Positions 21,679 through 46,186 of a stretch of DNA of 64,000 bases are shown in pieces. The translations under genes and the position numbers were made by a program. Within the stretch, counting starts at the first letter, position 1; every line of letters starts with the position of its first letter. Source of the stretch: Niastella vici (lineage in GTDB: Bacteria; Bacteroidota; Bacteroidia; Chitinophagales; Chitinophagaceae); NCBI RefSeq assembly GCF_002077945.1, contig NZ_LVYD01000042.1:124001-188000 (forward strand), in the 5' to 3' direction. The notes beneath the pieces are model-generated. The model was not told the DNA's origin, did no database searches, and saw only the letters and a program-made list of their open reading frames with translations.

Positions 21679-21782
21679 TAATTTCTGATTTTGCGATTTA
21701 GAGATTTTTCGATTTCCTTTAATTTGAACCTTGCGAAAAGTCCGGAAATCTCTAAATCTCAAAATCCCGAAATCTCAAAATC
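21679..21782. repeat. Word-type inverted repeat (GATTTTGAGATTT words)
   Basis: The arm at 21679-21716 (containing GATTTAGAGATTTTTCGATT) faces the arm at 21743-21782, whose complement reads GATTTTGAGATTTCGGGATT followed by TTGAGATTTAGAGATTTCC. It lies immediately after the histidine kinase stop codon. Almost the same arm sequence occurs at 46090-46124 inside the nos operon. Confidence 0.8.
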
Positions 21783-21786
21783 GAAG

Positions 21787-23922
21787 CTACGCTCTCAATG
21801 CCGACACTAAATAAGAAATCTTTGAGTGTAACTCTTCGGGCCGGAAAGGTTTATGAATAAAATCAGTAAATCCTTTTTGCAGCAGATCGGCCTGCATATT
21901 ATCATAAACCGCAGCTGTAAATGCTACTGCGGGTATAGACGTGTTAATTTTACGTATTTCTTTCAGGGCAGTCGCGCCATCCATTTCAGGCATTTCAAGA
22001 TCGATCAGTAACAGATCGTACGTGCCTTTTTTAAACTGGGTCAGCGCTTCGCGGCCATTGGTTGCCTCACTAACTTTTATGCCCCACTTGGTTAAAAATC
22101 TTTTGGCGATAGAAAGGTTCACCGGATTATCTTCTGCGATCAACAACCGGATGCCTTCCAGCGAATCGAGGTGTTTAATGTTGTCTTCATTGATATAGCG
22201 CTTCCTGTTTTCGCAGATCTTCAGCTCAACCGTAAAGTGAAAAGCGCTCCCCTTTCCTTCCTCACTTTCCAGCAACAGATCGCTGTTGAACATATTTACG
22301 ATGCGCTTGGTGATGGCGAGCCCCAATCCGGTTCCACCATATTTACGGGTAGTATTTACATCAGCCTGCGTAAAGCTGTCGAAGATCTCTTTATGCTTGT
22401 TCTTGGGAATGCCGATACCTGTATCCATTACAATAAACTGCAGGGTCGACTTGGCGCTCGATGAGAACAACTTTCGAACCGCCATTGTGATGGCGCCCTG
22501 GTGGGTAAACTTGAGTGAATTGGCCAGCAGGTTGCTCAGCACCTGGTTCAACCGGGTTTCATCGGTAAAGAACTCCGCATCGAGGCGGTCGTCGATATCA
22601 ACTTTGAACTCCAGACCTTTCAATTTTATCTGGGGCGAGAACTGCGAAGCCAGTTTTTGCATGAACTCTTTTATATTCACCGGCACATCGGCCAGCTCCA
22701 CTTTACCGGCTTCCATTTTATTATAATCCAGAATATCGTTGATGAGCATCATCATATGCTCAGAAGAAAACTTCAAAATATCGAGGTGTTGTTCCTGCGT
22801 TGATAAATGTTCTTCCTGCAACAACAGATTGCTGGCGCCAATGATGCCATTCAGCGGGGTGCGTAACTCGTGGCTCATGTTGCTGAGGAAGCGCGATTTG
22901 GTGCGGGCGGCCGATTCTGCTTTTTCCTTGGCTTTCATTAATTCAAACTCGGCCATCTTCACGTTCGATACATCCAGGATACTGATCTTCGTATAACCGG
23001 TATCTTTGTAAATAAAGGGCACCACACTCACAAAGCCGTAAAAAGTGCGGCCTGTTTTGGCCGTAAGAGTAAGTTCGCCCTGCCAGGGCTTTGATTCGCC
23101 CGACAGCGCTTCTTTTATGGAATTGAACTGTTTTATGTGATGCTCCTCGAACCAGTGTTCAATATTGGTGCCTTCAATTTCGCGTTTTTCATTCACCTCA
23201 AACAGCTCCAGGGCGCGTTTATTACAACTGGCAATAATGTTGCTTTGGCTGAAAATAATAAATACCCCGTCGAGCGAGGTATTGAAGATGGTATCGCCGA
23301 ATGTTTTTTCCTGCAAAATGGCTACCTCATTGTCTTTATTCACCTGTAATATGGAATAAGAGAAAATGATGGTCATGGCCAGCGATATTACCAGGTTGCC
23401 GCTGTACAATTGCGCATACAGGGCTTCGTTGATAACCTGAACATTATTGATGTACGGACAGATCTTTACACAAACCAACGAGCATATAACTGTGATGGAG
23501 TATATTGATAACAGCTCTTTAAAATTACGGCGAATGCTCACCACAAACGTTAATACCACGAAGTAAGGAAAATACAGCAGGTACTCCCCCGCCCGCAACC
23601 CCTCGATATAACTTATTACGATGAGGTATAGGTTTATATTGATCACGGCGATAATGCGGCCTGTTTCGAGCTTTCGTTTGGAACCGAAATAAAATGCCAG
23701 CAGGAAGAAATAAGCCGAAGTAATGTTTACTAACGCGCTTATATATAGTTTGTGATAAAAATAGGAGAAAACGGAAATAAAGTTCAGCAGCAGGGCAAGC
23801 AGAATAAACTGGTTGAAGCGGATGATGCGCTTACGCAGATCTTTAGAAACGCCTTCATACAAGCCCGTATGAACTATATCCCGGTAAATAGACCAGACAA
23901 GATATAATATTTTCTCCTTCAT
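21787..23922 (-). CDS. Hybrid sensor histidine kinase / response regulator
   Basis: Inner-membrane sensor kinase of 711 residues. Residues ~35-195 contain about six hydrophobic segments and form a membrane sensor region with almost no periplasmic domain. A PAS domain follows (~205-320), then HisKA with the phospho-accepting H351 in SHELRTPLNGIIG, a HATPase domain (N-box QVLSNLLANSLKF, G1 box DTGIGIP, G2 GGTGLGLAI) and a C-terminal receiver whose phosphorylation site is D641 (LLLIDLEMPEMDG) with the conserved lysine in HKPF. Having its own receiver, it needs an Hpt protein to pass the phosphate on; exactly such a gene starts 77 bp away on the other strand. The signal sensed is unknown. Confidence 0.92.
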   Translation of the reverse strand: MKEKILYLVWSIYRDIVHTGLYEGVSKDLRKRIIRFNQFILLALLLNFISVFSYFYHKLYISALVNITSAYFFLLAFYFGSKRKLETGRIIAVININLYLIVISYIEGLRAGEYLLYFPYFVVLTFVVSIRRNFKELLSIYSITVICSLVCVKICPYINNVQVINEALYAQLYSGNLVISLAMTIIFSYSILQVNKDNEVAILQEKTFGDTIFNTSLDGVFIIFSQSNIIASCNKRALELFEVNEKREIEGTNIEHWFEEHHIKQFNSIKEALSGESKPWQGELTLTAKTGRTFYGFVSVVPFIYKDTGYTKISILDVSNVKMAEFELMKAKEKAESAARTKSRFLSNMSHELRTPLNGIIGASNLLLQEEHLSTQEQHLDILKFSSEHMMMLINDILDYNKMEAGKVELADVPVNIKEFMQKLASQFSPQIKLKGLEFKVDIDDRLDAEFFTDETRLNQVLSNLLANSLKFTHQGAITMAVRKLFSSSAKSTLQFIVMDTGIGIPKNKHKEIFDSFTQADVNTTRKYGGTGLGLAITKRIVNMFNSDLLLESEEGKGSAFHFTVELKICENRKRYINEDNIKHLDSLEGIRLLIAEDNPVNLSIAKRFLTKWGIKVSEATNGREALTQFKKGTYDLLLIDLEMPEMDGATALKEIRKINTSIPAVAFTAAVYDNMQADLLQKGFTDFIHKPFRPEELHSKISYLVSALRA

Positions 23923-23999
23923 AGAGTTATTGGATTAGAACGAAAGGTTTCATTCTACGGATAATTAATTAAACGAAAAAATGGATAAACTATTTTCCT

Positions 24000-24404
24000 A
24001 TGAGCGGAGCAAATTTCTCTAAAAAATTCATTTTCAATGAAAAAATCGACAGCGATTATCTTTATAGCCTGTATGAGGATGATTACCAGTATATAGAAGA
24101 AATATTCCAGACCACGCTGGCACACTTTGATGAAGATTATAATTCAATTAGAACAGCTTACGAATCAAATAATTTATTAGAACTAAAAAAGGCAATACAT
24201 AAAATCAAACCAACGTTTGGATTTGTAGGATTGCCGTTAGTACAACATATTTGCAAAGAATTTGAAGATCAGTGTCAAAGGGCAGGGTCTTCGAATGATT
24301 TAAAAACAGAATATCAACAAATTGTAACTACTTTAGCAGCCAGTAAAGACCTGATCGCAACGGAGTACAATAAGTTGAAAGAATTCAATTCCAATTTTTT
24401 ATGA
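24000..24404 (+). CDS. Stand-alone Hpt (histidine phosphotransfer) protein
   Basis: Small cytoplasmic protein of 134 residues, the normal length for a single Hpt domain. The motif AIHKIKPTFGFVGL contains H67, the expected phospho-accepting histidine, in the family pattern HxxKPxxxxxG. It would take phosphate from the receiver of the divergent hybrid kinase and give it to the LytTR regulator encoded next, whose start overlaps this gene's stop by 4 bp. The tight overlap implies co-translation and a fixed stoichiometry. Base composition is more AT-rich than the neighbours, as is common for such small proteins. Confidence 0.88.
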   Translation: MSGANFSKKFIFNEKIDSDYLYSLYEDDYQYIEEIFQTTLAHFDEDYNSIRTAYESNNLLELKKAIHKIKPTFGFVGLPLVQHICKEFEDQCQRAGSSNDLKTEYQQIVTTLAASKDLIATEYNKLKEFNSNFL

Positions 24405-25093
24405 AATGGACCTGTGTCATAGTAGAGGATTTGCAGGTAGCCGCAGATTATCTGGCAAAATGCTGCGAAAAAAGCGGACTGTTACAGGTGAAAGGACATT
24501 TTACCAACGTGGAAGAGGCGCTTGATTACCTGAATAAAAATTCCGTTGACATATTGTTTCTGGATGTAGAGATGCCCGGCGCTACCGGGTTCGACCTGCT
24601 CGATCAACTTGCTTATTATCCCAAGGTCATTCTTACCACTTCCAAATCGGAATACGCTTATAACGCATTTGAATACAATGTCACCGACTTTCTGAAAAAA
24701 CCGTTCACCTATCAACGTTTTCAGGAGGCCCTGAATAAACTCACTACCCCTGCCGGGGAAAATAACATCAGCAGCACAGCCTCTGATCATATCTTCATTA
24801 AATGCGATGGCAAGCTGGTTCGGCTGAATAATGATGAAATCCTGTTTATCGAAAGCATGGGCGACTATGTAAAATTCGTGACCACCGATAAAAAGTTCAT
24901 TACCCACAATACCATCAAGAACCTGGAAGAAAAGGTGAACCGGCAAACATTTATCAAGGTTCACAGGTCGTACATAATCAATATCAATAAGATAGACGAT
25001 ATCCGCGAAAACGACCTGTTTATTAAAGGGAACGAGATCCCGGTTAGTAAAGCCCATAAGGCCGACGTATTAAAGCGTTTAAACATCATCTGA
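24401..25093 (+). CDS. LytTR family response regulator
   Basis: DNA-binding response regulator of 230 residues. The receiver domain (1-120) has the acidic pocket VED at residues 8-10, the phosphorylation site D55 in LFLDVEMPGATG, and the conserved lysine in FLKKPFT. The LytTR domain (~130-230) shows the typical IFIKCDGKLVRLNNDEILFI, ESMGDYVKF and FIKVHRSYIINI elements. It is the probable end point of the phosphorelay kinase to receiver to Hpt to this protein. Target genes are not indicated. A hairpin terminator lies 270 bp downstream, but a promoter-like motif in between suggests that terminator may serve another transcript. Confidence 0.92.
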   Translation: MKWTCVIVEDLQVAADYLAKCCEKSGLLQVKGHFTNVEEALDYLNKNSVDILFLDVEMPGATGFDLLDQLAYYPKVILTTSKSEYAYNAFEYNVTDFLKKPFTYQRFQEALNKLTTPAGENNISSTASDHIFIKCDGKLVRLNNDEILFIESMGDYVKFVTTDKKFITHNTIKNLEEKVNRQTFIKVHRSYIININKIDDIRENDLFIKGNEIPVSKAHKADVLKRLNII

Positions 25094-25189
25094 TCTTCAT
25101 CGATATTTTCATCCTGTTTACCGGCATAAAGGCCCCAAATAGCTAATAATTTTCTCTTTGCCGGTGTTCGTAACCATCTTTGTTATAGC

Positions 25190-25399
25190 AGAAAAGTACA
25201 TAAAACGCAGACCCTTAATATACTGTGTAACTTATTAATTGTGACGGTTATCAATTATAAACCCTATCCCTGAACGGAAGAAAAAAGTGGAATCCCTCAA
25301 CACTATGAAAACTAGTGTGAACTAATCTCCAGCCTGCTCATGAAACGGATTTCATTAAAAAGCTGCCGGGCCCCAAAAAGGGTCCGGTTTCTTTTTTTA
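25190..25399 (+). ncRNA. Candidate small RNA 1 (with terminator at 25366-25399)
   Basis: A -7-like motif CATCTTTG at 25175-25182, within ACCATCTTTGTTA, precedes about 210 nt without a believable reading frame, ending in a terminator: CCGGGCCC/GGGTCCGG stem (25366-25387) and a T-rich tail to 25399. The same 13-nt motif occurs before candidate 2. The terminator is clear; an independent transcript is inferred. Alternative: a long 3' untranslated region of the LytTR gene. Confidence 0.35.
25366..25399 (+). terminator. Rho-independent terminator
   Basis: Eight-pair stem CCGGGCCC/GGGTCCGG (one G-T pair) with an A-rich loop and TTTCTTTTTTT. Confidence 0.85.
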
Positions 25400-25911
25400 T
25401 AATTATTTCTATGCTGTTTTCAGGGCGAAAACCCTACAACCCTGGATGCTGAAGGCTACCCAAATGGATGTTACTTAGGGCTGACTCGTGCACTGCCCTG
25501 TTAAAATGGTACCAAGAATGGGTGTTAGACTCTAGGTGAATGGCCTGGGTATTGCCTGCGGACTGCCTGAAGACTCCCTTGGGGTTGCACTGCAGCCATT
25601 GGATTCCTGTAGGGGCCCCAGAGTATCCCAATGCACCGCCCAGGGCATCTGGCTACCAGTTTCGGCATATAGGTACCATTACACTACTGTCTGCGCCGCT
25701 ATATTGTAAGTGTTTATTATTATGGTGATCGGGAAATAATGCGGTTCCAGCTCAGCTTATACCGTTTTAGCTACCCAATCACCCTGGATTTTATCTCACA
25801 TATTAGAGAAACCATTTACTCCCCCCGTGTTTTAACCCCTACCATCGAAGGTTTCCCCTTATTTGTCGAATAAAATTGTCCCCGGGACAAAGAATGACCA
25901 TCTTTGTTAAC

Positions 25912-26219
25912 GATCGAAAGTTCCTATAAAAAACCGAAAGACCCCGAAAGGGGAGATCCAGTTGAAGGCTTCACGGAGCCTGATATCCAAAGAAAAACCA
26001 TAGACCCGTTTTGTTCCAACAATCCATGAAAACCAACCGAAAATCTCCTCGAGAAAAAACCCTAAACATCCAGTTCCGATGAAAAGTCCAAGAATTTAAA
26101 ATCCATTATCTGAAAGGAGAACTACCCAAGAAAATCTGAGCCTATAGATGAATTAAATTTACTTAGAGACTACCCAAAGATTATTGAATTAAAAAAGCCG
26201 CCCCGTGAGGCGGCTTTTT
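25912..26219 (+). ncRNA. Candidate small RNA 2 (with terminator at 26195-26219)
   Basis: A TTG (25876-25878) and CATCTTTG (25899-25906) spaced 20 bp form a good Bacteroidetes-type promoter. The -33 overlaps a perfect palindrome TTGTCCC C GGGACAA (25876-25890) that could be an operator. About 305 nt follow with no convincing reading frame: A/C-rich sequence with repeated GAAAACC- and ATCC-like words and small hairpins (GACCCCGAAAGGGG; GGCTTCACGGAGCC). It ends in a strong terminator. The 5' ends of candidates 1 and 2 look related (GAAA..GT...ATAAAA..CG..AGACCC). Nothing else is seen in the 25400-25860 interval. Confidence 0.4.
26195..26219. terminator. Rho-independent terminator, possibly bidirectional
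   Basis: AAGCCGCC/GGCGGCTT stem of 8 bp with a 6-nt loop, TTTTT on the plus side and AAAAAA before it. Confidence 0.85.
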
Positions 26220-26304
26220 GCTTACCTCCGGCCCTCTAACCTAAAGGGGAGCTCGGCTATCGCGCTTTAAAGGGAATAATCAAAGACCGATTGGCCACTC
26301 AAAA

Positions 26305-26332
26305 CAAAAAGCCACCTTACAATAAGATGGCT
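26305..26332 (-). terminator. Terminator of the MBL-fold gene
   Basis: On the minus strand AGCCATCTT/AAGGTGGCT (one mismatch) is followed by TTTTTGTTTTG, 46 bp beyond the stop at 26378. Confidence 0.85.
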
Positions 26333-26377
26333 CTTTATAAAATATCTTCAACTTGGTGACCCTGTCAAATCTATTAA

Positions 26378-27781
26378 CTAAGTCAGCCCTATTTCATAAT
26401 GTAATTCCGGGATCTCCACATCGCCAAACCCTTTTTTAATTAACCGCTCGCGAAACTGTTGCTGCACATTGTACTCGCCATGCACCAGGAACAGGCGTTT
26501 TACCTGGCGCGGGTCCTGACAGGACAAAAACTGGCTCAGGTCCTCATAATCACCATGTGCACTCATGCTGTGGATGGCGCCTATTTCGGCATGCACTTCA
26601 TGCAATACGCCATAGATGTGCACTTCCTTTCTGCCCGATAACAGGCGTGCACCCAATGACTCAGGCTCGCAATAACCGGTCATTAAAATAGTATTGCGGC
26701 TGTTCTCTATATTATTGCTGATATGGTGTTTCACCCTGCCGGCCTCAGCCATACCACTGGCCGAAATAATGACGCAGGGTTCATTACGGAAGTTCAACAG
26801 CTTCGACTCCTGCACTGTTTTTATAAACTTCAATCCTTTGAAGCCAAAGGGGTCCGAATCTGACTCCAGCACCTTTTGAATGGTCTTGTTAAAATAACGC
26901 GGGTATCGTTTAACCAGTTCAGTTGTTTTTACACTGAGCGGACTATCCACAAAATAATCCAGATCGGGCAGCCGGCGCTCCAGTTCCAGCTGATTTAAAT
27001 GATACAGGATCTCCTGGGTACGGCCCACGCTGAAAGCGGGAATAATGAGCTTGCCTTTTTTCTGCAAACAGGTTTTTTCGATCCACTGCAACAACTGATC
27101 GGGTGTGGTAACATTCAGCTCGTGCAGGCTGTTGCCGTAGGTTGATTCCAATATAATATAATCGGCTTGCGGAAATTCAACAGGGGAACGCAGGATCACA
27201 TCGCGATAACGGCCCACATCGCCACTGAATGTAAGATGCGTGACCTTTCCATTCTCGGTTATCTTCAGATTTACAGCTGCGCTGCCAATAATATGGCCGG
27301 CATCGGTATACATCAGCTCTACAAACTCATCTACTGCATGCCATTGCCCGTATTCAACCGCTTTCAGGAACTGGAACGACTGTTCGGCATCTTCCCGGGT
27401 ATACAGGGGTTTCAGGTAAGGCTGGTGTTCGGCTGCTCTTTTCTTGTTCAGGTATTTCACATCGTCTTCCTGTATTTCGGCCGAATCAACCAGCAGTATT
27501 TCGGTGAGATCTTTGGTAGCCGGTGTACAAAATATGGTACCCTTAAAACCGTCGGCGGTTAGCTTGGGGATCAATCCGCTGTGGTCGATATGCGCATGCG
27601 ATAATATAAGGCAATCCACCTCAGCCGGGTTAAAGCCCCAGTTGCGGTTCAAATTATTGGTGGCCTGGCCCAGGCCCTGGAACATGCCGCAATCGAGTAA
27701 ATACTTTTTGCCATTGTTCAAAGTAAGTAAATGCTTTGAACCGGTAACGGTACGTGCAGCACCGTGAAATGCGATCTTCAT
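26378..27781 (-). CDS. MBL-fold beta-CASP metallohydrolase (RNA-processing exonuclease family)
   Basis: Cytoplasmic protein of 467 residues, full length for the CPSF-73-like bacterial family. The zinc-binding motif LSHAHIDHSG (HxHxDH) lies near residue 60, with further ligand motifs DAGHIIGS and FSGDVGR. The beta-CASP part has PAFSVGRTQEILY and SASGMAEAGRVKHH, and the C-terminal RNA-specific motif SMSAHGDYEDL...VHGEYN completes the active site. Homologues cleave RNA endo- or exonucleolytically; the substrate here is unknown. Monocistronic, with its own terminator and a word-type inverted repeat upstream. Confidence 0.9.
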   Translation of the reverse strand: MKIAFHGAARTVTGSKHLLTLNNGKKYLLDCGMFQGLGQATNNLNRNWGFNPAEVDCLILSHAHIDHSGLIPKLTADGFKGTIFCTPATKDLTEILLVDSAEIQEDDVKYLNKKRAAEHQPYLKPLYTREDAEQSFQFLKAVEYGQWHAVDEFVELMYTDAGHIIGSAAVNLKITENGKVTHLTFSGDVGRYRDVILRSPVEFPQADYIILESTYGNSLHELNVTTPDQLLQWIEKTCLQKKGKLIIPAFSVGRTQEILYHLNQLELERRLPDLDYFVDSPLSVKTTELVKRYPRYFNKTIQKVLESDSDPFGFKGLKFIKTVQESKLLNFRNEPCVIISASGMAEAGRVKHHISNNIENSRNTILMTGYCEPESLGARLLSGRKEVHIYGVLHEVHAEIGAIHSMSAHGDYEDLSQFLSCQDPRQVKRLFLVHGEYNVQQQFRERLIKKGFGDVEIPELHYEIGLT

Positions 27782-27837
27782 TATTGTAAAAAGTTTTGTT
27801 TGTTGTTCAATTCCATCATTGGCTCAAGAACTTTCAT

Positions 27838-27953
27838 GGTCAATGGTGAATGGTGAATGGTGAGTGGTGAATGGTGAAATCGCTCGCGAAATTTGAGATT
27901 AATAACCAATCTTGCACCGCCGGTTATTGCCCATTGTCCATTAACCATTCATC
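27838..27953. repeat. Word-type inverted repeat (GGTGAATGGT words)
   Basis: GGTCAATGGTGAATGGTGAA is followed by three more TGGTGAATGG-like words up to 27878. This arm faces CCCATTGTCCATTAACCATT at 27930-27949. The loop is about 50 nt. The word GGTCAATGGTGAATG also occurs at 81-95 and 58176-58190. Confidence 0.75.
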
Positions 27954-28425
27954 CTTTCCTTTTAAACGACCAGGTAATCAAACACTCCGCTACCTTCTCA
28001 CCCTGTTCATTGGTACCGGTTGCCGTAGCTACAAAGGTTTGTGCTTCGCCCGTGGCAACGGCTTGTTCTATGGCGTTCAACAACAAGGCGCCGTCTTTAC
28101 ATTCAAACCGGGTACGCCCCGTTGCTTTCTTGAAATAGCTGGCTTCAAACTTCACTACCAGCATCGATACGGGCGGTTTGCGCTTGTACACATGCGCCAT
28201 GGCCAGTGAGCCGGTGCTCATTTCAGCCGCCATGGCCAGGCAGGCAAAGTAGGTAGAACGGAAAGGATTTTGTGAGAACCATTTATACGGAACCGTCACC
28301 ACACAATGCTGTTCATCGATCTCTCTGATGCGCACACCCGAAAAGAAGGCGGCGGGCAGCTTCCAAAACAGGTATAACCTGAAAGCTACAGGATTACTTA
28401 GTTGTTGTATGAATTTATTTGGCAT
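27949..28425 (-). CDS. DUF4442 (hotdog-fold) protein, probable thioesterase-like
   Basis: Protein of 158 residues when started at ATG 28425 (MPNKFIQQLSNPVAFRLYLF); the longer frame from 28491 begins inside the lysA terminator region and is rejected. The sequence matches the DUF4442 hotdog family: NPFRSTYFACLAMAAEMSTG in the central helix and KFEASYFKKATGRTRFECKD in the strands. Members resemble acyl-CoA thioesterases, but no activity is assigned. It lies between lysA and the MBL gene in the same orientation, yet terminators flank lysA, so it probably has its own promoter. Confidence 0.78.
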   Translation of the reverse strand: MPNKFIQQLSNPVAFRLYLFWKLPAAFFSGVRIREIDEQHCVVTVPYKWFSQNPFRSTYFACLAMAAEMSTGSLAMAHVYKRKPPVSMLVVKFEASYFKKATGRTRFECKDGALLLNAIEQAVATGEAQTFVATATGTNEQGEKVAECLITWSFKRKG

Positions 28426-28459
28426 GGAGGAAAGGTTAGTTACATTCTTCAATGAATGT

Positions 28460-28487
28460 AAAAAAAATCCCGACGGTAACCGTCGGG
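28460..28487 (-). terminator. Terminator of lysA
   Basis: CCCGACGG/CCGTCGGG stem of 8 bp, followed on the minus strand by eight T with one interrupting A. The hairpin starts 12 bp past the lysA stop. Confidence 0.9.
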
Positions 28488-28499
28488 ACAATCTATAAT

Positions 28500-29714: not shown

Positions 29715-29736
29715 AGTATGCGAATATAAGAACAGT

Positions 29737-29858: not shown

Positions 29859-29881
29859 AATGCTATTTCAAAAAATGAGGG

Positions 29882-32101: not shown

Positions 32102-32331
32102 GCGGAAACAGGGGAAAATTCCTTGTTCTGTGTAAAATTCCGTATTGGATGTGAGTTTCCTGCCAGAAGCCAGTGATCCAGTTTCTAAGTTTTTAATTTT
32201 TAAGTTCTTAGTTCCGGTTCACGGTTACGGTTCATGAACTCATTAACTTACTAACTCACAAACTCAAAAACTCATTTTCAAATCTGCCAACCAGCCACTT
32301 TCGTAAATAAATCACTTTGAAACACCACTGA

Positions 32332-34218: not shown

Positions 34219-34335
34219 GTTACCGGTTACCCGGTTCCGGTTGCCGGGCCTTGAATGTCGATCACTCTACCTGAAATCGGGTTCTCCGAATTCTTTGCCC
34301 GGTGACAGGTAACAGGCAACTGGTAACCGGCAACT
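34219..34335. repeat. Word-type inverted repeat (GGTTACC words) before lpxB
   Basis: GTTACCGGTTACCCGGTTCC followed by GGTTGCCGGGCC (34219-34250) faces GGTGACAGGTAACAGGCAAC plus TGGTAACCGGCAAC (34301-34334). The arms pair imperfectly over about 32 nt. The same word is used at 35468-35564 and 63585-63652. TATCTTTAC just before the lpxB start is a possible -7 element. Confidence 0.75.
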
Positions 34336-35467: not shown

Positions 35468-35564
35468 AACTGGTTACCAGTTACCGGTTTCAGGTTACCA
35501 GGCAATAATTCGGACGGCATTCAAGGCCCGGCAACCGGCAACCGGCACCCGGTAACCTGTAACT
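35468..35564. repeat. Word-type inverted repeat (GGTTACC words) after lpxB
   Basis: ACTGGTTACCAGTTACCGGT and TTCAGGTTACCAGG (35469-35502) face GCCCGGCAACCGGCAACCGG and CACCCGGTAACCTGTAAC (35526-35563). It lies between the convergent stops of lpxB and the small protein gene, so it may act as a two-way terminator even though no T-run is present. Confidence 0.75.
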
Positions 35565-38500: not shown

Positions 38501-38504
38501 ACGA

Positions 38505-38673
38505 GGAGTGCCTACCTTGCGGGGGCACTTTCATCAACAATAAAGGAGGGTCCCTTCGCCAGTAGGCGGAAAGCTCACCTTCATAAACATAAAAGGTGAG
38601 CCCTCACTGAAAGAGGACCAAACTATCACCAATAAAAAAACCATCGTCCCGATATACCGGGAGATGGTTTTTT
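38505..38673. terminator. Hairpin-rich 3' region ending in a bidirectional terminator
   Basis: Successive stems are visible: AGTGCC/GGCACT (about 38507-38530), CGCC agta GGCG (near 38558-38569), and a perfect GCTCACCTT/AAGGTGAGC with a short loop (38572-38601). The last hairpin, CCATCGTCCCG/CGGGAGATGG (38641-38667) with flanking A7 and T6, can terminate both the protease gene and the facing gene that ends at 38707. Confidence 0.75.
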
Positions 38674-38706
38674 ATTTGTAAACATCAAAACAACACAAGC
38701 AGAATG

Positions 38707-39168: not shown

Positions 39169-39287
39169 AGCTCATTGGTTTTGATGGTGAATCAATTGCT
39201 ATGCTATTAATCAGAGGCTACTTTGTATGTTAAATATAACTAATACCCGTAATATAGAAAAATAATTTACCCCCTGCCCCCTAAAGG

Positions 39288-39376
39288 GGGAGTATAGTTG
39301 CCGATTACCAGTTACTGCGCTTCATTTCATCCCGCCTAGGCGGGACCGTTTCACAGCCTGCCCCGACGTGTCGGGG
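39288..39376. repeat. Cluster of short GC-rich palindromes
   Basis: Three perfect inverted repeats follow one another: CCCCCTAAAGGGGG (39289-39302 region), TCCCGCCTAGGCGGGA (39330-39345) and CCCCGACGTGTCGGGG (39361-39376). None has a T-run. Similar CCCGA-type stems serve as terminators elsewhere in the window. Confidence 0.6.
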
Positions 39377-39529
39377 TTTCACGACTCCATTAGCACCTTA
39401 TTAAATTATCACATTCTCTCTAACACTACGTACTACCGTTTAGCCGCGCTTAAACAATACGGTCATTCTACACAAACAGGGTAGCCGAAATTTGCAAACC
39501 GCCTGTTGGCTGTGCTATTTTTACATCAG

Positions 39530-39801
39530 CAAGCCAGGAAACAAGATCAAGTGCCCGCTGAAACCAACAAAACCTTATCCCGACCGAAGATCCTTTGAAA
39601 AACTAAACCGTTGATGGAGCGTACCCTTGAAGTTCCCAACCAGAGCCCGTTTATAATCCGAACCCGAAAACTGAAACCTTATCGCTATCCAATCCTACTG
39701 AAAGATCCCTGAAAACCATCCTTTTGGAAAACAAATCCGCCAAAAGAGATTGTCCTCCGCCGCCTCCCGGTAACTACCGGGATGGCGGGGAGGATTTTTT
39801 T
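39530..39801 (+). ncRNA. Candidate small RNA 3 (with terminator at 39753-39801)
   Basis: TTTG (about 39491-39494) and TATTTTTA (about 39516-39523), about 21 bp apart, resemble a promoter. They precede ~270 nt without a credible frame; composition is A/C-rich with repeated CTGAAA, GAAAAC and ATCC words, like candidate 2. It ends in a very strong plus-strand terminator, although no plus-strand gene lies within 1.2 kb upstream. CCAGAGCCCGTTT (39638-39650 region) resembles CCATAGACCCGTTT in candidate 2. Confidence 0.4.
39753..39801 (+). terminator. Strong rho-independent terminator without an assigned gene
   Basis: TCCTCC-gCCGCC-tCCCGGTA pairs with TACCGGG-a-TGGCGG-gGAGGA across a 1-3 nt loop (39753-39794), followed by seven T. 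Its direction fits only a plus-strand transcript. Confidence 0.85.
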
Positions 39802-39812
39802 ATGTACAGGTG

Positions 39813-40208
39813 CTAAATAATCGACTTCGGATCGTTTGAAGGAGAAACTTTGATCAGCATCATGGTGGCAATGGAGCGGGCCCGTTGTTTTATAAGCTCG
39901 GCCATGTCGCCTTTAAACAGTTCATCTACAGTGGCCAGGAATAACTCCTGCCAACGGGCAAAATGGGCTGCGCTCAGCGGCGATTTCTGGTGCAGCTGCA
40001 CATGAGCCACCATGGGGTTGCCTTTAAACCCGCCGGTTTGAAAAAGGATGTTCTCCCAAAAATCGTACATGCGGGGTAAATGCTGCTCCCAGTTCACTTT
40101 GGCCACATCATTGAACAGGTATCCGATGGTTTCATCGGCCCGCACCTTTGTATAAAATGTATCTACCAGTTGTTTTATATCTGCTCTGTCCTTTATGTCT
40201 TGCATCAT
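39813..40208 (-). CDS. Group III truncated hemoglobin
   Basis: Haem protein of 131 residues, a normal length for group III (P) truncated globins. The pattern VDTFYTKVRADETIGYLFND, then HLPRMYDFWENILFQTGGFKGNPMV, HVQLHQKSPLSAAHFARW and ELFLATVDELF is characteristic; the proximal haem histidine is in the HFARW segment. These globins are associated with NO handling. It is the last gene of the nos operon and its start overlaps nosY by 4 bp, so it is probably made together with the N2O reductase system and may protect it from NO. No terminator for the operon is obvious just after it. Confidence 0.92.
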   Translation of the reverse strand: MMQDIKDRADIKQLVDTFYTKVRADETIGYLFNDVAKVNWEQHLPRMYDFWENILFQTGGFKGNPMVAHVQLHQKSPLSAAHFARWQELFLATVDELFKGDMAELIKQRARSIATMMLIKVSPSNDPKSII

Positions 40209-40972
40209 AAGTCTTTACGGTTAAATTTTCTGACCGACCACCACAAAGGCATACCGGCCCAGGTGGTCATGATCAACAAGGTTGCTACTATACCCCATTG
40301 ATAACCAAAGAAATCCCTGAATATTGCGCTGGTAGCTCCCATGAGTGCCGAAATATCGAGCTTCAACAATATGAGGATACGCGCCAGGTCTATGGGATTT
40401 AAACAACTGAACACGATCATTGGTTTTTCCATAGGGTAATCCATAAACTGGAACAACAGGAACAACACAATACCGTCAAAAATAAGGGTAAAATAAAACC
40501 ATAATAAAATGGCCACTCCAATTCCCTTTGCTTTATCGCGGGTTAATACCGAAGCCAGCAAGGCAATGGCCACAAAAATGATGGTTATCAGCAAACCCAT
40601 GGCCGTCATCATAATGCCCACATCTGAAGGGGCATAAATAAGCACCGGCACTCCACAGCCCACTAAAAATGCCACACACAGCGAAGCCGCCAGTCCGGTG
40701 AAGATGCTTAACCAGATATTCACCCGCCGCAATGGTTGCGATACCAGCAGCTCAATGAACTCTGACGCATTATATACATATATAGTGGAAAACACAATGC
40801 TCACCAGCGGAACAATGATCAATACCAGGTTCAGCAAACTCAGGATGCCTTTCGATGGATTGTCTTCGAGGTTGAACACACTCATCGATATTACCGCTAA
40901 AAACAGCGTGTAGGCAATAACGATCCGGTTCCGCAACAGATCGAGCAATACGTATTTGATGATCTTTTTCAT
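40205..40972 (-). CDS. nosY: Nitrous oxide reductase ABC transporter, permease NosY
   Basis: Inner-membrane permease of 255 residues with about six hydrophobic helices (for example IVIAYTLFLAVISMSVF, LLNLVLIIVPLVSIVFSTIY, MMTAMGLLITIIFVAIALLA, WGIVATLLIMTTWAGMPLWW). It contains the NosY-type segment EFIELLVSQPLRRVNIWLS and the DKAKGIG motif. With NosF it forms the ABC complex that works with NosD in building the sulfur-containing CuZ centre of NosZ. It is separated from nosF by an 85-bp gap containing two copies of a dispersed repeat, and it overlaps the globin gene by 4 bp. Confidence 0.9.
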   Translation of the reverse strand: MKKIIKYVLLDLLRNRIVIAYTLFLAVISMSVFNLEDNPSKGILSLLNLVLIIVPLVSIVFSTIYVYNASEFIELLVSQPLRRVNIWLSIFTGLAASLCVAFLVGCGVPVLIYAPSDVGIMMTAMGLLITIIFVAIALLASVLTRDKAKGIGVAILLWFYFTLIFDGIVLFLLFQFMDYPMEKPMIVFSCLNPIDLARILILLKLDISALMGATSAIFRDFFGYQWGIVATLLIMTTWAGMPLWWSVRKFNRKDL

Positions 40973-40989
40973 GTTAATTTATTTATGCG

Positions 40990-41044
40990 CTTCGACTTCG
41001 CTCAGCGCTTTATACCGCCCTTCGATCCTTCGACTTCGCTCAGG
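40990..41044. repeat. Two copies of the CTTCGACTTCGCTCAG element
   Basis: CTTCGACTTCGCTCAG occurs at 40990-41005 and again at 41028-41043, in the only sizeable gap between nosF and nosY. Related copies stand at 53616-53631 (CTTCGACTCCGCTCAG) and 58263-58278 (CTTCGGCTCCGCTCAA). It is a dispersed intergenic repeat; its function is unknown. Confidence 0.75.
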
Positions 41045-41057
41045 ACGCTCAGAACGT

Positions 41058-41762
41058 TCACGATCCCATTACCTGCGCAATGGCCCTTGATAATTTCTTT
41101 TCGCCGGTATCTTCCTGTAACTGGTTGAGCGATTTATGAAAGCGCAGCCTGCCTTCTTCCATATAGATCACTTCGGTAACAATATCGTCGAGGTCGCTCA
41201 GGATATGCGAGGTAATGAGCACCAGTTTGCCTGCCTGTTTTTCTTTCCTGATCTTTTCTTTCAGTATTTCGGTCGACAGCGGATCGAGCCCGGCAGTTGG
41301 CTCATCGAGTATCAGTACATCGGGGTTGAACAGGAAGGCCAGCGAGGCGCTTACCTTTTGCCGGGTGCCGCCCGACAAGTTACCCATGCGTTTGTGCAGC
41401 ATACCATCAAGTTTGAATAAATGAATAAGCTCTTCATCGAGCTGCACTGCCGATTGTTTGCGAATGTCTTTCATCATATCGAGCACCTGGGCAATCGTCA
41501 TATTCTCAGGATAGCGGCCGATCTGCGGCATATACCCAATGGCCGACCGGTATTGCCAGTTATGCGCGATGTTCTGTTTGTTGAAAGTGATAAAGCCGCT
41601 ATCGGGTACCACCATGCCCAGCAGGCATTTAATAAAGGTGGTTTTGCCCGAACCGTTTGGTCCTATAAGCGAGATGGTTTGTCCTTTGTTACAGGTGGCG
41701 CTAATGTTGTCGAGCGCGGTCAGCTTTCCAAACTTTTTGGTAACACTTGTTGCAATGATCAT
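41058..41762 (-). CDS. nosF: Nitrous oxide reductase ABC transporter, ATPase NosF
   Basis: ATP-binding subunit of 234 residues. Walker A is GPNGSGKTTFIKC, the Q-loop is YMPQIGRYPENMT, the ABC signature LSGGTRQKVSASLAF, Walker B DVLILDEPTAGLDPL and the switch histidine ITSHILSDLDD. These features and its place between nosD and nosY identify NosF rather than a general ABC ATPase. It powers sulfur or copper delivery for the CuZ site together with NosY and NosD. The start overlaps the nosD stop by 4 bp (ATGA). Confidence 0.93.
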   Translation of the reverse strand: MIIATSVTKKFGKLTALDNISATCNKGQTISLIGPNGSGKTTFIKCLLGMVVPDSGFITFNKQNIAHNWQYRSAIGYMPQIGRYPENMTIAQVLDMMKDIRKQSAVQLDEELIHLFKLDGMLHKRMGNLSGGTRQKVSASLAFLFNPDVLILDEPTAGLDPLSTEILKEKIRKEKQAGKLVLITSHILSDLDDIVTEVIYMEEGRLRFHKSLNQLQEDTGEKKLSRAIAQVMGS

Positions 41763-43003
41763 AAGCTGAGATTTTTAAATGCTTTCATTCTGGGTTGATC
41801 ATCTTTCAAATTCTCGGGAATGAAACCGGGAATTGTTTTCTCTGCCTTGTCGAGCAGGCCGGTGATAAAGCTTCTGAACAACATCATGGTAACGGGGTTA
41901 CGTTCTGCGATCATCGCATACAGGCTTACCGGCCGGTATGGCACATCCCCCACTCCATCGTGGTTCAGGTCGTAGCCTTCATATTTATCCCAGTAATTGT
42001 TGTTAAAGGTGTTCAATACCAGCGTGCCGTTGGTGGCCACATCAAAGCTGTTGCCCTGAAAATTATTTTGTGTAATGGTATTGTCGTTACAACTTGCCTG
42101 CACCTTCAGGGCCCAACCATTATTATCAAATAAGTTCTGTGCTATGTGAATGCGGTTGGTTCCTTCCATATAAATACCGGTGGTATTGCGCACAAACCGG
42201 TTGCGCTCGATGCGGCTGTCGCTGATTTCTTTTAATAATATGCCATAGGCAGCGCCGCCCCAATTCTCACTAAACAGGTTCTGCAACATGGTAACGCCTT
42301 TTGAGAACATCACCGCCACCCCGGCGCCATTATTCTTAAACTGGTTGGCCATGTAGGTATCGTCGTTCGAAAACATAAAATGCAATCCATACCGAACATT
42401 GCCCGTGCTAATATTATTTTTAATGAGCGAGTTGGTCACAAATTCAAAATAGATGCCGTCGCGGTGACCAGTAATGGTATTGTTGAGGATCTGCATGCTG
42501 TCGCTCTTCCAGCAATGGATGCCATTGGCTGAGGTAATTTCATTCACCGCATTGGAGTGAAGCGTATTATTTGAGATGGTACAGCTAACCGCATGCTGTG
42601 AATAAATGCCGAAGAAAGTATCATCGAGCTTGTTATTGCGGATAATGACGTGCCGGCTGTTGAGAATGCGAATGGCGGCAATATCATTATACCCTGAGTA
42701 ACCTGAATGTTGTATGGCAAACCCTTCCACCACTACCCGGCTGCTTTTAATGACCATGATCTCGTATTTCTTTTGGCCGTCGAGCACGGGATAACCGATG
42801 CCTTTAATGTAAAGCGGCTTGTTTACGATGATGGTCGGCTGCCGGTACACGCCGCGTTCAACCAGGAGAGTATCGCCCGGCATTGCGTTATCAATAGCCT
42901 CCTGAAGCGATTGTAACGGGCCTGCCGGACGCACGATCCATGTTTTGGCATAAGTCGTCATAGCCAGCACTATGAGGCTTAGGACCAGGCTGCATTTTCT
43001 CAT
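41759..43003 (-). CDS. nosD: Periplasmic copper-site maturation protein NosD
   Basis: Periplasmic protein of 414 residues. I start at ATG 43003, which gives a signal peptide (MRKCSLVLSLIVLAMTTYAK) and a 4-bp gap to the nosL stop; the longer frame from 43036 would overlap nosL and bury the signal. The mature part is a right-handed beta-helix of CASH/parallel beta-helix repeats (PLQSLQEAIDNAMPGDTLLV; repeated N-N-x-I/L pattern such as ISNNTLHSNAVNEI and NNTITGHRDGIYFE; GxGDVPYRP near the end). NosD interacts with NosFY during CuZ assembly in NosZ. Confidence 0.92.
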   Translation of the reverse strand: MRKCSLVLSLIVLAMTTYAKTWIVRPAGPLQSLQEAIDNAMPGDTLLVERGVYRQPTIIVNKPLYIKGIGYPVLDGQKKYEIMVIKSSRVVVEGFAIQHSGYSGYNDIAAIRILNSRHVIIRNNKLDDTFFGIYSQHAVSCTISNNTLHSNAVNEITSANGIHCWKSDSMQILNNTITGHRDGIYFEFVTNSLIKNNISTGNVRYGLHFMFSNDDTYMANQFKNNGAGVAVMFSKGVTMLQNLFSENWGGAAYGILLKEISDSRIERNRFVRNTTGIYMEGTNRIHIAQNLFDNNGWALKVQASCNDNTITQNNFQGNSFDVATNGTLVLNTFNNNYWDKYEGYDLNHDGVGDVPYRPVSLYAMIAERNPVTMMLFRSFITGLLDKAEKTIPGFIPENLKDDQPRMKAFKNLSL

Positions 43004-43007
43004 ATGA

Positions 43008-44030
43008 CTATTGAGCGATTTCATTCCAGTGTACATTTTTTCCGTTCACTTGTTGTTTGGCTTGTTCGCGGTTTCCTTCGTTCAAAAAAGCAGCGGTGTT
43101 ACTCCCCATCGGGCTGTGCAGGTCGCTGCTTTGTAACAGGAAACTTTCACTGGCATGTACAAACTCTTTTGGCGTGGAGTACTCAAGCAGGTATATACCT
43201 GCCAGATCGGTTTTTCGCATATTGGAGGATCTTAAAAACGAGGTGATGCAGTGTATGTCATCGAACTTATACACTTTCCCTTTTCTGGTGATAACCTCAC
43301 CGCCAAACCGCTGATCGAGGATGGTCATTTTGCAAAAGTCACAGGCATCCTTTCCGAACTCAATGGGTTGCGGACCGGTACTGCAACTGCTGCAACAGAT
43401 CAGCATGAATACAGCGGCAGTGCTTAAAGCCGTCCTTATATTGGTAAACGACTTCTTATTCTTTCTGCGCAATTCCAGCCAGGCGGCCAGAACCATTAAC
43501 ACACCGGCGCCAACAAATATCCAGCCACCGGCATCGGGTACGCTCCAGGCGCCAAAGTTCAGCAACTGTTTATACCCGATCAATGGTGGTTGATACGACA
43601 TGCCCGGTACCTGAATGGGCGCAGCAGGATTAAGATTATGTCCATAGTTATATTCCCAACGATAGAAATCGACCATGGCAACAATAGCGAACAACAGGTA
43701 ACTTCCTATACAAGTATAAAAGACCCATCGGCGGTTAACAATGGCTGCCAGTAAGCCAAACACTACAAAACCGCCGATGATATAAGGCAACACGGTAAAT
43801 TCAATAAAGTCATTTGCGTGTAGCGTGCGCATGCCTATATAGTGGTTCAACCCATTCACGACCTCTACATCTCCGCCCAGCTTGCCGGCAAATATTTGCA
43901 ATGCCAGTCCTTCAGGATATTGGGGGGCGCTTAACTCAATACGCCAGATGGGCAGGAATAAAACTCCTATCAGTGACAGCGCACAAATTGCTATTATTAT
44001 TCTTGACGTAGTTGTTAACCTGTTGTTCAT
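43008..44030 (-). CDS. nosL: Membrane protein fused to copper chaperone NosL
   Basis: Two-part protein of 340 residues. Residues 1-~190 have about four transmembrane helices (IIIAICALSLIGVLFLPIW; LPYIIGGFVVFGLLAAIVN; VFYTCIGSYLLFAIVAMVDF; GGWIFVGAGVLMVLAAWLEL). Residues ~210-340 are a NosL domain beginning with an internal lipoprotein-like signal (AAVFMLICCSSCSTG) followed by the copper-binding CDFCKMTILDQRFGGEVITR. NosL delivers copper to NosZ. In related bacteria I know these two parts as separate neighbouring genes, so a fusion is notable. The internal start of a NosL lipoprotein cannot be excluded. It lies 41 bp after nosZ in the same operon. Confidence 0.88.
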   Translation of the reverse strand: MNNRLTTTSRIIIAICALSLIGVLFLPIWRIELSAPQYPEGLALQIFAGKLGGDVEVVNGLNHYIGMRTLHANDFIEFTVLPYIIGGFVVFGLLAAIVNRRWVFYTCIGSYLLFAIVAMVDFYRWEYNYGHNLNPAAPIQVPGMSYQPPLIGYKQLLNFGAWSVPDAGGWIFVGAGVLMVLAAWLELRRKNKKSFTNIRTALSTAAVFMLICCSSCSTGPQPIEFGKDACDFCKMTILDQRFGGEVITRKGKVYKFDDIHCITSFLRSSNMRKTDLAGIYLLEYSTPKEFVHASESFLLQSSDLHSPMGSNTAAFLNEGNREQAKQQVNGKNVHWNEIAQ

Positions 44031-44071
44031 AATAAAAACTTTTATCGGTTACAAAAGCTGACAGAACGCTT

Positions 44072-46051
44072 TTATTTGGCAGCTTCTGCCTCATTTGTCT
44101 TACCCAAACTAAAACTGATGGGTACATTATTGCCGGGGCCCGACACGCGGATGTAACCACTCATTTCCTGGTGCAGGGCACTGCAGAAGTCGGTACAATA
44201 GAAGGGATAAACGCCTGCTTTTTCGGGAATCCATTTCAGGGTTTGTGTTTCACCGGGCATTATCAGTAACTCGGCATTGTTGGCGCCTTTTACTGCAAAG
44301 CCGTGTGGAATATCCCAATCCTGTTCAAGGTTGGTGATATGGAAGTATACTTCATCGCCTACTTTCACGCCTTCAATATTATCTGGTGCAAAGTGGCTGC
44401 GGATAGAAGTTGCGTATACATGCACTTTGTTTCCTTCGCGTACTACTTTTGATTCTTTCTCCCCTTTGGTTACATAGGCATTGGCGTTGTCGTCGATGCG
44501 GTAGAATTTGGTAGAATTCTTTGAGATGAGATCGGCTGAAACTGCTTGTGCATAGTGCGGTTCACCAATGGTGGGGAAGTCGAGGATCAGCTGCATTTTA
44601 TCACCGGTGATGTCGAAGATCTGTGCGGCTTGTGCCAGTTCGGGCCCGGTAGGCAAATAGCGGTCCTTGGTGATCTTGTTATAGGCAATTACATATTTGG
44701 CATTCGGTTTACGGCTGTCGCCACCTGGTATACACAGGTGACCAATGGAATAATAAGTAGGCACACGGTCAAGCACTTTCAGGTCTTTGATATTCCATTT
44801 TACGATCTCTGACGACACAAAGAAAGAGGTATAGGCATTTCCTTTTCCGTCAAACTCGGTGTGCAGGGGGCCTAAGCCTGGTTTCTGCACTTCACCATAC
44901 AAGGCTGCTTCATATTTGATAACAGGGATGCCTTCAAACTCGCCATCGAAAGCTTTGTCGGCAATGGCCTTTTGAATTTTGGTGTAAGAGAACACGGGTA
45001 TCAGTGCGGCCAGTTTACCACTGCCTACAATGTATTCACCACTGGGGTCAACGTCGCAACCGTGTGGTGATTTGGGGCAGGGAATAAAATAACAGATGTC
45101 TTTCAATACGGCGGGATCGAGCACTGTAACTTCATTCAGGGTCTCAGAAGTGGCGGTATGTGATTTTTCATCGTAACGGCAGTGTGAATACTTTGATGCT
45201 TTCTTTACGCCTTTGCCTGCTTTCAGGTATTCTTCTGCTTTTTTCCAGTTAACTGCAAGAATGAAATCCTTGTCGCGCTGCGAAGCGTTTACTTCCAACA
45301 GGGTGTTGGCCTGTTCTGAATTATAGCAGCTGAAGAAGAACCAGCCATGGCTTGGGCCTTTACCGGCGTGGCTCAGGTCGAAGTTAACGCCTGGTGTTTG
45401 CAGCTGGAAGGCGATATTCATGTTACCGGTAGTTTTGTCAACACTGATAAAGCTCAGCGAGCCCTTGAAGTTCTGTTTGTAGGAACTGATGGGCACATCC
45501 TGGTTATCGCCGATGGGCACACTAAACCGGGTACCAGCTACCACGTATTCGGTGTTTTCGGTAATAAAGGGAGAAGAGTGGTTACCGGCGCTGTTGGGCA
45601 ATTCAATGATCTCGGCGGTACGGAACGTTTTGAGATCAACGCGGGCAACACGGGGAGTGTTGTTGGCATTGGCAAATACCCAGCGGCCATCTATTTCCCC
45701 ATTGGTTTGCGACAGCTCGGTATGGTGCAGGTCGTCCCAGGGTACAAAACCATGCGAAGTGTTCAGCATAGCTTTGGTGTTCTCGCTATAACCATATCCT
45801 TTTTCAGGGTCTACTGAAAAAACGGGTATCACGCGCAGCAACCGGCCCGAGGGCAAGCCATATACAGACATTTGTCCGCTAAAGCCGCCGGAAACGAAAT
45901 TGTAGAACTCATCGTACTTACCGGGGGCTACATACGCTTTGATAGCAGCATCGCCACTTACGGCGGTAGCCGCGTTGTTGGGTTTACAGGCGGTTAGCCA
46001 GGAGGCAGCCGCAACTGATATTATGAGGAACGTTTGATTGAAGGGTTTCAT
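44072..46051 (-). CDS. nosZ: Nitrous oxide reductase, clade II (Sec-dependent)
   Basis: Periplasmic copper enzyme of 659 residues that reduces N2O to N2. It has a lipoprotein signal with lipobox LTAC (C22) instead of a twin-arginine signal, the mark of clade II (atypical) NosZ. The beta-propeller carries the CuZ histidine motifs DDLHH (H109, H110), SHGWFFF, SPHGCDV, PLHTEFD, GHLCIPGG and GEPHYAQ. The cupredoxin domain at the C-terminus holds the CuA site C619-x3-C623-x3-H627-x2-M630 (CTDFCSALHQEM) with an upstream IPHGFAV histidine. All expected ligands appear present, so it should be active. It is preceded by a cytochrome c gene in the same operon. Confidence 0.97.
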   Translation of the reverse strand: MKPFNQTFLIISVAAASWLTACKPNNAATAVSGDAAIKAYVAPGKYDEFYNFVSGGFSGQMSVYGLPSGRLLRVIPVFSVDPEKGYGYSENTKAMLNTSHGFVPWDDLHHTELSQTNGEIDGRWVFANANNTPRVARVDLKTFRTAEIIELPNSAGNHSSPFITENTEYVVAGTRFSVPIGDNQDVPISSYKQNFKGSLSFISVDKTTGNMNIAFQLQTPGVNFDLSHAGKGPSHGWFFFSCYNSEQANTLLEVNASQRDKDFILAVNWKKAEEYLKAGKGVKKASKYSHCRYDEKSHTATSETLNEVTVLDPAVLKDICYFIPCPKSPHGCDVDPSGEYIVGSGKLAALIPVFSYTKIQKAIADKAFDGEFEGIPVIKYEAALYGEVQKPGLGPLHTEFDGKGNAYTSFFVSSEIVKWNIKDLKVLDRVPTYYSIGHLCIPGGDSRKPNAKYVIAYNKITKDRYLPTGPELAQAAQIFDITGDKMQLILDFPTIGEPHYAQAVSADLISKNSTKFYRIDDNANAYVTKGEKESKVVREGNKVHVYATSIRSHFAPDNIEGVKVGDEVYFHITNLEQDWDIPHGFAVKGANNAELLIMPGETQTLKWIPEKAGVYPFYCTDFCSALHQEMSGYIRVSGPGNNVPISFSLGKTNEAEAAK

Positions 46052-46089
46052 AAATCTATTTTATTAGAAGATTATTTTAAAAAATTTTG

Positions 46090-46186
46090 GATTTTGAGAT
46101 CTCGGGATTTTGAGATTTAGAAATAGTACAGCCTGCCTGAAATAAATGAAATCCCAAAATCTCTAAATCGCTCAATCAGAAATCCT
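46090..46186. repeat. Word-type inverted repeat (GATTTTGAGATTT words) inside the nos operon
   Basis: GATTTTGAGATCTCGGGATT with TTGAGATTTAG (46090-46120) faces 46149-46186, whose complement carries GATTTAGAGATTTTGGGATT. It fills the gap between the cytochrome c stop and nosZ. The arm matches the complement of 21743-21782 at about 33 of 36 positions. Confidence 0.8.

Follow-up and report, generated by a model that had tools for sequence, protein, structure and literature searches.

The 64,000-nucleotide stretch of Niastella vici DNA analysed here (NCBI RefSeq assembly GCF_002077945.1, contig NZ_LVYD01000042.1, positions 124,001 to 188,000 of the forward strand; hereafter the window, numbered from its first letter) holds two intergenic hairpins, W1 and W2, whose arms are built from tandem GATTT words. 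Both belong to a dispersed intergenic family rather than being chance resemblances, and this GATTT family is itself one of many word families that have a common architecture and common sites. With a probability that we would put at roughly 0.55, GATTT is a dispersed non-autonomous palindromic element that moves as REPINs do, in trans, by means of an HUH (Y1) transposase.

The GATTT elements and their copies

The arm of W2 at 46090-46125 agrees at 33 of 36 positions with the reverse complement of 21747-21782 in W1, whereas, when the window was shuffled 20 times with its dinucleotides preserved, the highest score that this arm reached was 20-25 of 36. The original prediction had drawn attention to this match (placing the W1 span at 21743-21782, which is corrected here) and to a facing arm at each locus, and both observations hold: 21687-21715 faces 21738-21782 in W1, and 46090-46118 faces 46149-46177 in W2. 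With at most one mismatch, GATTTTGAGATTT occurs nine times in the window, always within W1 or W2, where a count of 0.15 would be expected; neither these nine copies (0 of 100 shuffles) nor the match of 33 in 36 was attained in shuffled sequence, as a mere chance similarity should have been.

W1 (21680-21782) lies between a DUF4136 gene (20359-21114, minus strand) and a hybrid histidine kinase gene (21787-23922, minus strand), and starts 4 nt past the stop codon of the latter. It comprises an outer left end AATTTCT (21680-21686, plus strand), which is the consensus end of the family, a left arm of four GATTT words with a period of 8 nt (21687-21715, plus), a loop of 22 nt (21716-21737, minus) whose reverse complement can be aligned with the GATTT-family loop, and a right arm (21738-21782, minus) of five AAATC words and one degenerate inner word; the right side is without the AGAAATT end. 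W2 (46090-46184; like W1, assigned to neither strand as a whole) lies between nosZ (44072-46051, minus strand) and the cytochrome c gene beside it (46185-46655, minus strand), directly after (0 nt) the stop codon of the latter. Its left arm (46090-46118, plus) and right arm (46149-46177, minus) have four words each, its loop (46119-46148, no strand assigned) is of 30 nt, compared with the usual 22, and was excluded from the loop comparison described below, and its outer right end (46178-46184, minus) reads AGAAATC where the consensus is AGAAATT. When folded as RNA, W1 gave z scores of -4.2 (plus strand) and -3.1 (minus strand), and W2, the weaker hairpin, -1.0 and -1.4. No terminator-like site was found at W1 or W2, and a search of the window with Rfam 15 at the gathering score gave no match to a known structured RNA.

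The two hairpins might have been the only copies in the genome, an outcome that would have told against the original prediction; in fact the strict pattern GATTTNGNGATTTNGNGATTT has 223 matches (113 + 110) in the 10.06-Mb N. vici genome, compared with three (0 + 3) for the reversed pattern, and among the matches listed a hand count gave at least 46 separate sites. A looser search of 864 kb, fetched mostly around GATTT matches, found 50 elements, of which 47 were two-armed, all of them ordered GATTT, loop, AAATC. The unit is about 100 bp long, with arms of about four GATTTNGN words flanking an asymmetric loop of about 22 nt, and the family consensus is AATTTCT-GATTT(NGNGATTT)x3-~22 nt-(AAATCNCN)x3-AAATC-AGAAATT. 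Only two of 48 elements fall within open reading frames of at least 90 codons, as given by the simple, greedy caller that was used for gene context. Among the 40 elements that could be parsed, 24 had loops of 18-24 nt that were compared with each other (13 in plus and 11 in minus orientation), and 15 of these had a partner outscoring every shuffled comparison. A copy located on a different contig shows 94% identity over 95 bp; for a copy in another species the figure is 92% over 85 bp. Since loops are homologous in both orientations, and a distant copy is 94% identical, complete units must have been copied. The suggestion of a mobile or self-propagating element is thus borne out as far as a dispersed, non-chance intergenic family is concerned, although movement itself is not thereby demonstrated. 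The nesting of GATTT elements inside other word hairpins, which looked common by eye, was rejected: flank complementarity rose above the 95% background in three of 47 elements, where 1.1 would be expected.

The family has expanded in one genus, Niastella/Longitalea. The strict pattern was present in ten of 59 genomes searched (N. vici itself, eight congeners, and G044, which belongs to the same order but to a different family), and the sole genus member without it in that search is represented by an assembly that is 61% complete. (G008, 61% complete, was kept in the comparisons that follow.) Across 394 genomes of the family Chitinophagaceae, the inverted pattern was found in 16, namely nine of the ten in the genus and seven others. 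Within the genus the matches numbered 150 in N. vici (several per element), then 113, 90, 79, 55, 51, 18, 11 and 1, with none in G009; the seven carriers outside it had 1-5 each. Direct arrays of the octamer GATTTNGN were also seen, among the matches listed, in unrelated phyla (Acidobacteria, Deltaproteobacteria, Xenococcus, Colwellia, Shewanella and others); loci L039-L129 were examined for such arrays and L130-L156 left out, and those of other phyla (L050-L129) appeared by eye to be mostly without an inverted arm. The inverted pattern was seen on a single viral contig in IMG/VR (L332:4032-4082).

Word families and the reuse of intergenic sites

A lag scan of N. vici DNA found 48 arrays at period 7, 41 at period 8 and 19 at period 14, with no more than four at any remaining period within 4-15 and one array in all shuffles. 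The number at period 8 is inflated because most of the 20-kb stretches scanned had been chosen for their GATTT matches; nine stretches not picked in this way (180 kb) contained five word arrays and no GATTT element. Further words in this genome include GGT[G/C]AAT, GTTNCC, AAGTA[A/G]G and GGTTNCA, and a strict detector found 22 inverted array pairs, none of them GATTT, of which 20 had more G than C, one had equal numbers and one had more C than G. An array of GGTAACT words in the same genome extends over 640 bp (L180:13807-14446), and a reversed GGTSAAT control gave 105 + 15 matches there because the reversed pattern reads as GGTAACT.

Comparison of sister genomes at the W1 and W2 sites, as the original prediction had proposed, showed that the GATTT element is absent there (none of nine siblings at W1, none of six at W2), without providing a clean empty site. 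Other words could be discerned by eye at the W1 site in four siblings (GAAGTCNG in G007, GAAGCAAG in G006, and GTTGACNA in both G008 and G001), and across the W2 gap they were read in G005, G001 and G004, with none in G003, G002 and G007.

This replacement of words was followed over 62 of 107 orthologous junctions (each in at least three of the ten species), with occupancy tested on 270 gaps of at least 40 bp. Arrays of 7-8-nt words occupied 124 of the 270 gaps, compared with 0-1 for the same detector in five dinucleotide shuffles and one in 259 coding stretches of the same length; by lag, the detector gave 92 at 7 and 48 at 8, with 0-8 at lags of 5, 6, 9, 10 and 11. Species pairs in which the same junction was occupied numbered 224, against 162.4 expected, a value attained in none of 2000 permutations (made within bins of gap length, context and own or sibling origin, and ignoring phylogeny). 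Words, with sharing defined by a threshold on common 6-mers, were shared by 50 of 229 same-site pairs and by 509 of 6830 different-site pairs, a contrast that held at five thresholds from 0.1 to 0.4; 179 of the 229 same-site pairs were below the threshold. Sister species shared words at the same site in 2/6, 2/6, 2/9 and 0/5 cases. From these tests, it follows that sites are reused, and that some words are inherited while most differ. GATTT was seen by eye in five of eight species at the junction that separates an amino-acid kinase gene (an aspartokinase, by reading) from a gene for fructose-1,6-bisphosphatase. The convergent junction L184:7172-7251 (orthologues at L238-L253) is occupied in each of the ten species, by words of which at least six could be told apart by reading.

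Elsewhere in the window, an intergenic inverted array of the GGTTNCC type, with period 7 and arms that are 78% complementary, lies between two plus-strand genes (34219-34334, no strand assigned). The word-array scan also found intergenic arrays of GGT[G/C]AAT (period 7; 27835-27878, plus strand), AACTCANA (period 8; 32250-32274, plus), CCGGCAA/GGTTNCC (period 7; 35527-35554, minus) and GGTTNCA (period 7; 63585-63611, plus), together with a further period-7 array of GGT[G/C]AAT at 58168-58190 (plus). A 25-nt inverted repeat at 11651-11701 (88% complementary, with a 1-nt gap), just after an open reading frame of 1969 codons, has a second arm that runs into T-rich sequence, and resembles an ordinary terminator.

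A candidate Y1 transposase and the rival explanations

How might such units be moved? A search of the N. vici genome with PF01797 (E <= 0.001) found one gene, and two more distant relatives were found later. In all ten genomes the orthologue of that one gene is flanked by genes for DAHP synthase/chorismate mutase and for dehydroquinate synthase, with one full-length Y1 copy at this place in each; seven of the ten have one or two further weak PF01797 matches. The single-domain protein of about 142 amino acids encoded in this aro cluster scores 59.5 bits against the IS200 model NF033573 (cut-off 55) and 22.5 bits against the RAYT model NF047646, which is below the curated cut-off of 80. It thus resembles the TnpA of IS200/IS605, but is a single full-length syntenic copy in ten genomes rather than part of a multi-copy insertion sequence.

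Just upstream of this gene, and on that side only, is a word array of what we term the SAAT type in nine of the ten genomes: GGT[G/C]AAT in G000, G002, G005, G006, G007 and G008, and CG[T/G][G/C]AAT in G001, G003 and G004, with no such array at the locus in G009. Words were shared at the Y1 junction by 27 of 36 species pairs, the median for 17 other junctions being one in six, and SAAT arrays accounted for only 13 of 137 occupied species-junction cases elsewhere. Genome-wide, matches of the GG and CG types numbered 264 and 4 in G000, 51 and 27 in G002, 145 and 48 in G005, 222 and 8 in G006, 352 and 43 in G007, and 54 and 64 in G008, compared with 39 and 400 in G001, 3 and 182 in G003, 2 and 70 in G004, and 4 and 1 in G009. 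The fraction of C-type words at the locus correlates with that in the genome (Spearman 0.87, n = 9, permutation P = 0.0019, G009 being left out as it has no array at the locus), and the sign agrees in four of four sister contrasts. When aro and histidine-kinase DNA is used to build the tree, G001 groups with G005, and G004 with G008, which implies more than one change of word type. The stability of word type at the Y1 junction, taken with the rarity of SAAT elsewhere, is a stronger point than the correlation. As copies of REPINs flank a cognate single-copy RAYT/Y1 gene, so SAAT arrays flank a single-copy Y1 gene that is probably their cognate; we infer that the Y1 enzyme moves the SAAT family and, more weakly, that GATTT is moved by it or by an enzyme like it.

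A second candidate for the GATTT enzyme was considered and rejected. A tandem pair of RAYT-like genes (encoding about 204 and 175 amino acids; L189:4022-5455 in N. vici, equivalent to C1:704021-705454, with further loci at L316-L331) is found in nine of the ten genomes, among them genomes in which GATTT elements are scarce or absent, and no array was detected within 1.5 kb of the longer gene in any of the nine, in contrast to the Y1 gene with its SAAT array. The one orthologue that was scanned, a protein of 199 amino acids (L316:1186-1785), scores 72.6 bits against NF047646, just under the cut-off of 80. In the translations at L316 the shorter protein has SYI where the longer has HLH, and a short GTTAACAA-like stretch was seen by eye at the edge of the L317 locus. 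The pair could be domesticated or inactive.

If GATTT is moved in the way we favour, complete elements would be inserted between genes, frequently close behind a stop codon and facing either way. During replication, DNA left single-stranded would fold into the hairpin, which an HUH (Y1) transposase of the IS200/RAYT kind would cut and rejoin in trans; and the word families of the genus would succeed one another within a shared pool of tolerated sites. The likeness to REPIN/REP-RAYT (TnpA-REP) systems, as portrayed in passages of the relevant reports (PMC3116915; PMC6006769; PMC8266576), is considerable: in both, multi-copy intergenic inverted hairpin doublets (47 of 50 GATTT elements being two-armed) are copied as units, with loops less conserved than arms, and one word family here, SAAT, adjoins a syntenic Y1 transposase gene.

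Several points weigh against this reading. The GT[AG]G at the foot of canonical REP hairpins is absent from the edge profile of the 47 elements, which reads AATTTCT/AGAAATT, and GATTT copies do not flank a cognate RAYT/Y1 gene, so we do not file GATTT as a REPIN; in comparison with REPINs as those passages present them, the arms here are tandem, degenerate 7-8-nt words, each genome has many word families, and one site may carry different words from species to species. No GATTT array was found beside a transposase gene, the Y1 gene being flanked by SAAT words. Neither excision nor a precise empty site was observed, nor a target-site duplication of the kind that marks a MITE, although duplications were not searched for systematically, the flanks being too diverged between species. 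G009 retains the Y1 gene with almost no SAAT arrays, yet has 19 other word arrays in 100 kb. The correlation between locus and genome could also reflect a homogenised ordinary copy and so is not decisive; nine species are a small number, the permutation ignores phylogeny, and G008 is a misfit (C-type fraction 0.14 at the locus and 0.54 in the genome). The sister pairs come from aro and kinase DNA, and the short Y1 alignment, taken by itself, pairs the species differently, though with weak support. The most word-stable junction seen, above even that of the transposase, adjoins no transposase: at window position 28492-28499 the N. vici gap is of 8 bp and has no array, and five siblings have GTTATTN arrays with words shared in 10 of 10 pairs. 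At L184:7172, a terminator-like hairpin is flanked, on one side or both, by arrays of different words in at least eight of nine siblings (by reading), an arrangement that simple insertion does not explain. Finally, in the test of arm pairing described below, one of six spacer position classes gave P = 0.03 with G-U pairs allowed.

Alternatively, the arrays might grow in place without any transposase: replication slippage would expand a 7-8-nt word in one arm of a hairpin, hairpin-templated copying would write it in the other arm, and gene conversion would carry words from site to site. This is a possibility to be taken seriously, though we think it a good deal less probable than transposition: it would accommodate periods almost always of 7 or 8, sites that bear differing words (in one case beside a terminator-like hairpin), the failure to notice target duplications, and the missing canonical REP foot. 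However, homologous loops in both orientations, and unlinked copies that are 92-94% identical, require the copying of whole units. Moreover, templating of arm on arm would make the spacers match, and they do not match above expectation. In 40 of the 47 two-armed elements (giving 31, 29 and 25 spacer pairs with a middle G on both sides), a variable letter of the NGN spacers can pair with its counterpart in the opposite arm in 61 of 170 cases, against 71.7 expected (P = 0.97), or in 94 against 96.2 expected with G-U allowed, so compensatory pairing in the spacers overall is rejected. The hairpin still folds because the words of the two arms match, and we infer that what is constrained is the word, or else the way in which it is copied, and not the perfection of the pairing.

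It is unlikely that the family owes its existence to selection for an RNA hairpin at mRNA 3' ends, acting as a terminator or stabiliser, even if folding and position give some grounds for the idea. For 44 GATTT elements folded, the median energy was -27.9 kcal/mol and the median z score -3.9, with z below -2 in 41; the copies fold, a check that the original prediction had proposed, but without the compensatory changes in the spacers that it suggested looking for. In N. vici (where the sample for gene context was selected by GATTT matches) the arrays per kb of gap were 2.11 between convergent, 1.47 between co-directional and 0.52 between divergent genes, non-divergent arrays were a median of 41.5 nt from the nearest stop codon, and co-directional arrays were nearer the stop than the start in 51 cases against 29. 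Within 60 nt of a stop codon, the sense strand of the gene had more G than C in 64 of 82 N. vici cases and 58 of 69 sibling cases. In the siblings, though, the depletion between divergent genes was mild (1.16 per kb, compared with 1.55 co-directional and 1.63 convergent), and co-directional arrays were nearer the stop in 41 cases and the start in 40, so that a preference for 3' ends is clear in the N. vici sample and weak in its relatives. The siblings read at W1 and W2 do without the GATTT element. Nor do the elements look like intrinsic terminators, with a GC-rich stem followed by a T-tract: T-tracts at 19 of 94 element ends are a weak excess over the genome-wide background of 11.7%, intergenic DNA being richer in T.

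More doubtful still is the notion that the words serve as repeated binding sites for a protein, nucleoid-associated or regulatory, that recognises DNA or RNA, and are kept by selection on the word; it fits the conservation of word letters while spacer letters vary independently in both arms, but hardly the many unrelated words that take one architecture at the same sites in different species. Chance or low-complexity similarity, which the AT-rich and repetitive character of the sequence might have suggested, has already been refuted by the shuffle and reversed-pattern controls.

Precedents and meaning

Passages of a 2018 survey of HuH enzymes (PMC6006769) describe Y1 genes, mostly of Bacteroidetes, that are flanked by atypical structures without GT[AG]G. 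The flanks of its subclass 2.6 TnpA-Y1 genes resemble the present case in that non-canonical hairpins lacking GT[AG]G lie beside Y1 in Bacteroidetes, with copies elsewhere; the difference is that no word arrays appear in those passages. The Y1 protein here scores above the cut-off of the IS200 model NF033573. According to parts of another report (PMC4679880), direct repeats of the heptamer TAACTGA are intergenic, dispersed and patchily distributed over distant phyla, including five Bacteroidetes, with other heptamers mixed in (in Microcystis, Gramella, Aequorivita and Elizabethkingia) and with matching junctions of close relatives that are without repeats. Those dispersed intergenic arrays of a short word, with several words per genome, are like ours, whereas they were studied as one word in direct orientation, mostly before start codons in the main species, and inverted arms or an exchange of words at one junction do not figure in those parts of the report. 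The GGGNATC heptamers of Xanthomonas and Nostoc (PMC4692102, abstract) likewise are G-rich 7-nt words, prefer four units, and lie on the sense strand near stop codons with few in divergent gaps; they form direct, G-quadruplex-forming arrays, and the abstract makes no mention of inverted arms or of word replacement between species. GATTT, an octamer with two free positions and inverted arms, is distinct from both of these direct arrays of one nearly fixed heptamer. A literature search with the literal words found nothing relevant, and none of the open-access matches listed, judged by titles and the openings of abstracts, concerned degenerate-word hairpins that change their words at fixed sites. 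Parts of this picture thus have precedent in what those portions of PMC6006769 and PMC4679880 report; for word-array hairpins with word replacement at fixed sites, the literature searched held none.

It is conceivable, if rather speculative, that we are dealing with a general class of bacterial element in which a period of 7-8 nt, inverted arms and a G-rich 5' arm are conserved while the word is free, so that interchangeable families replace each other at the same sites within species-level time, and in which a domesticated HUH transposase co-evolves with one family and perhaps reads the periodic shape of all. In annotation, some caution is called for, as word arrays may create spurious open reading frames, terminators or small-RNA calls. 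The co-evolution of REP-like repeats with a domesticated transposase, and the switching of its specificity, become testable in ten genomes with a small protein of about 142 amino acids. Descriptions of small intergenic palindromes usually assign to each enzyme a single family with a set motif; here the word at a given junction often differs between sister species, and this suggests a population of small intergenic elements in rapid flux.

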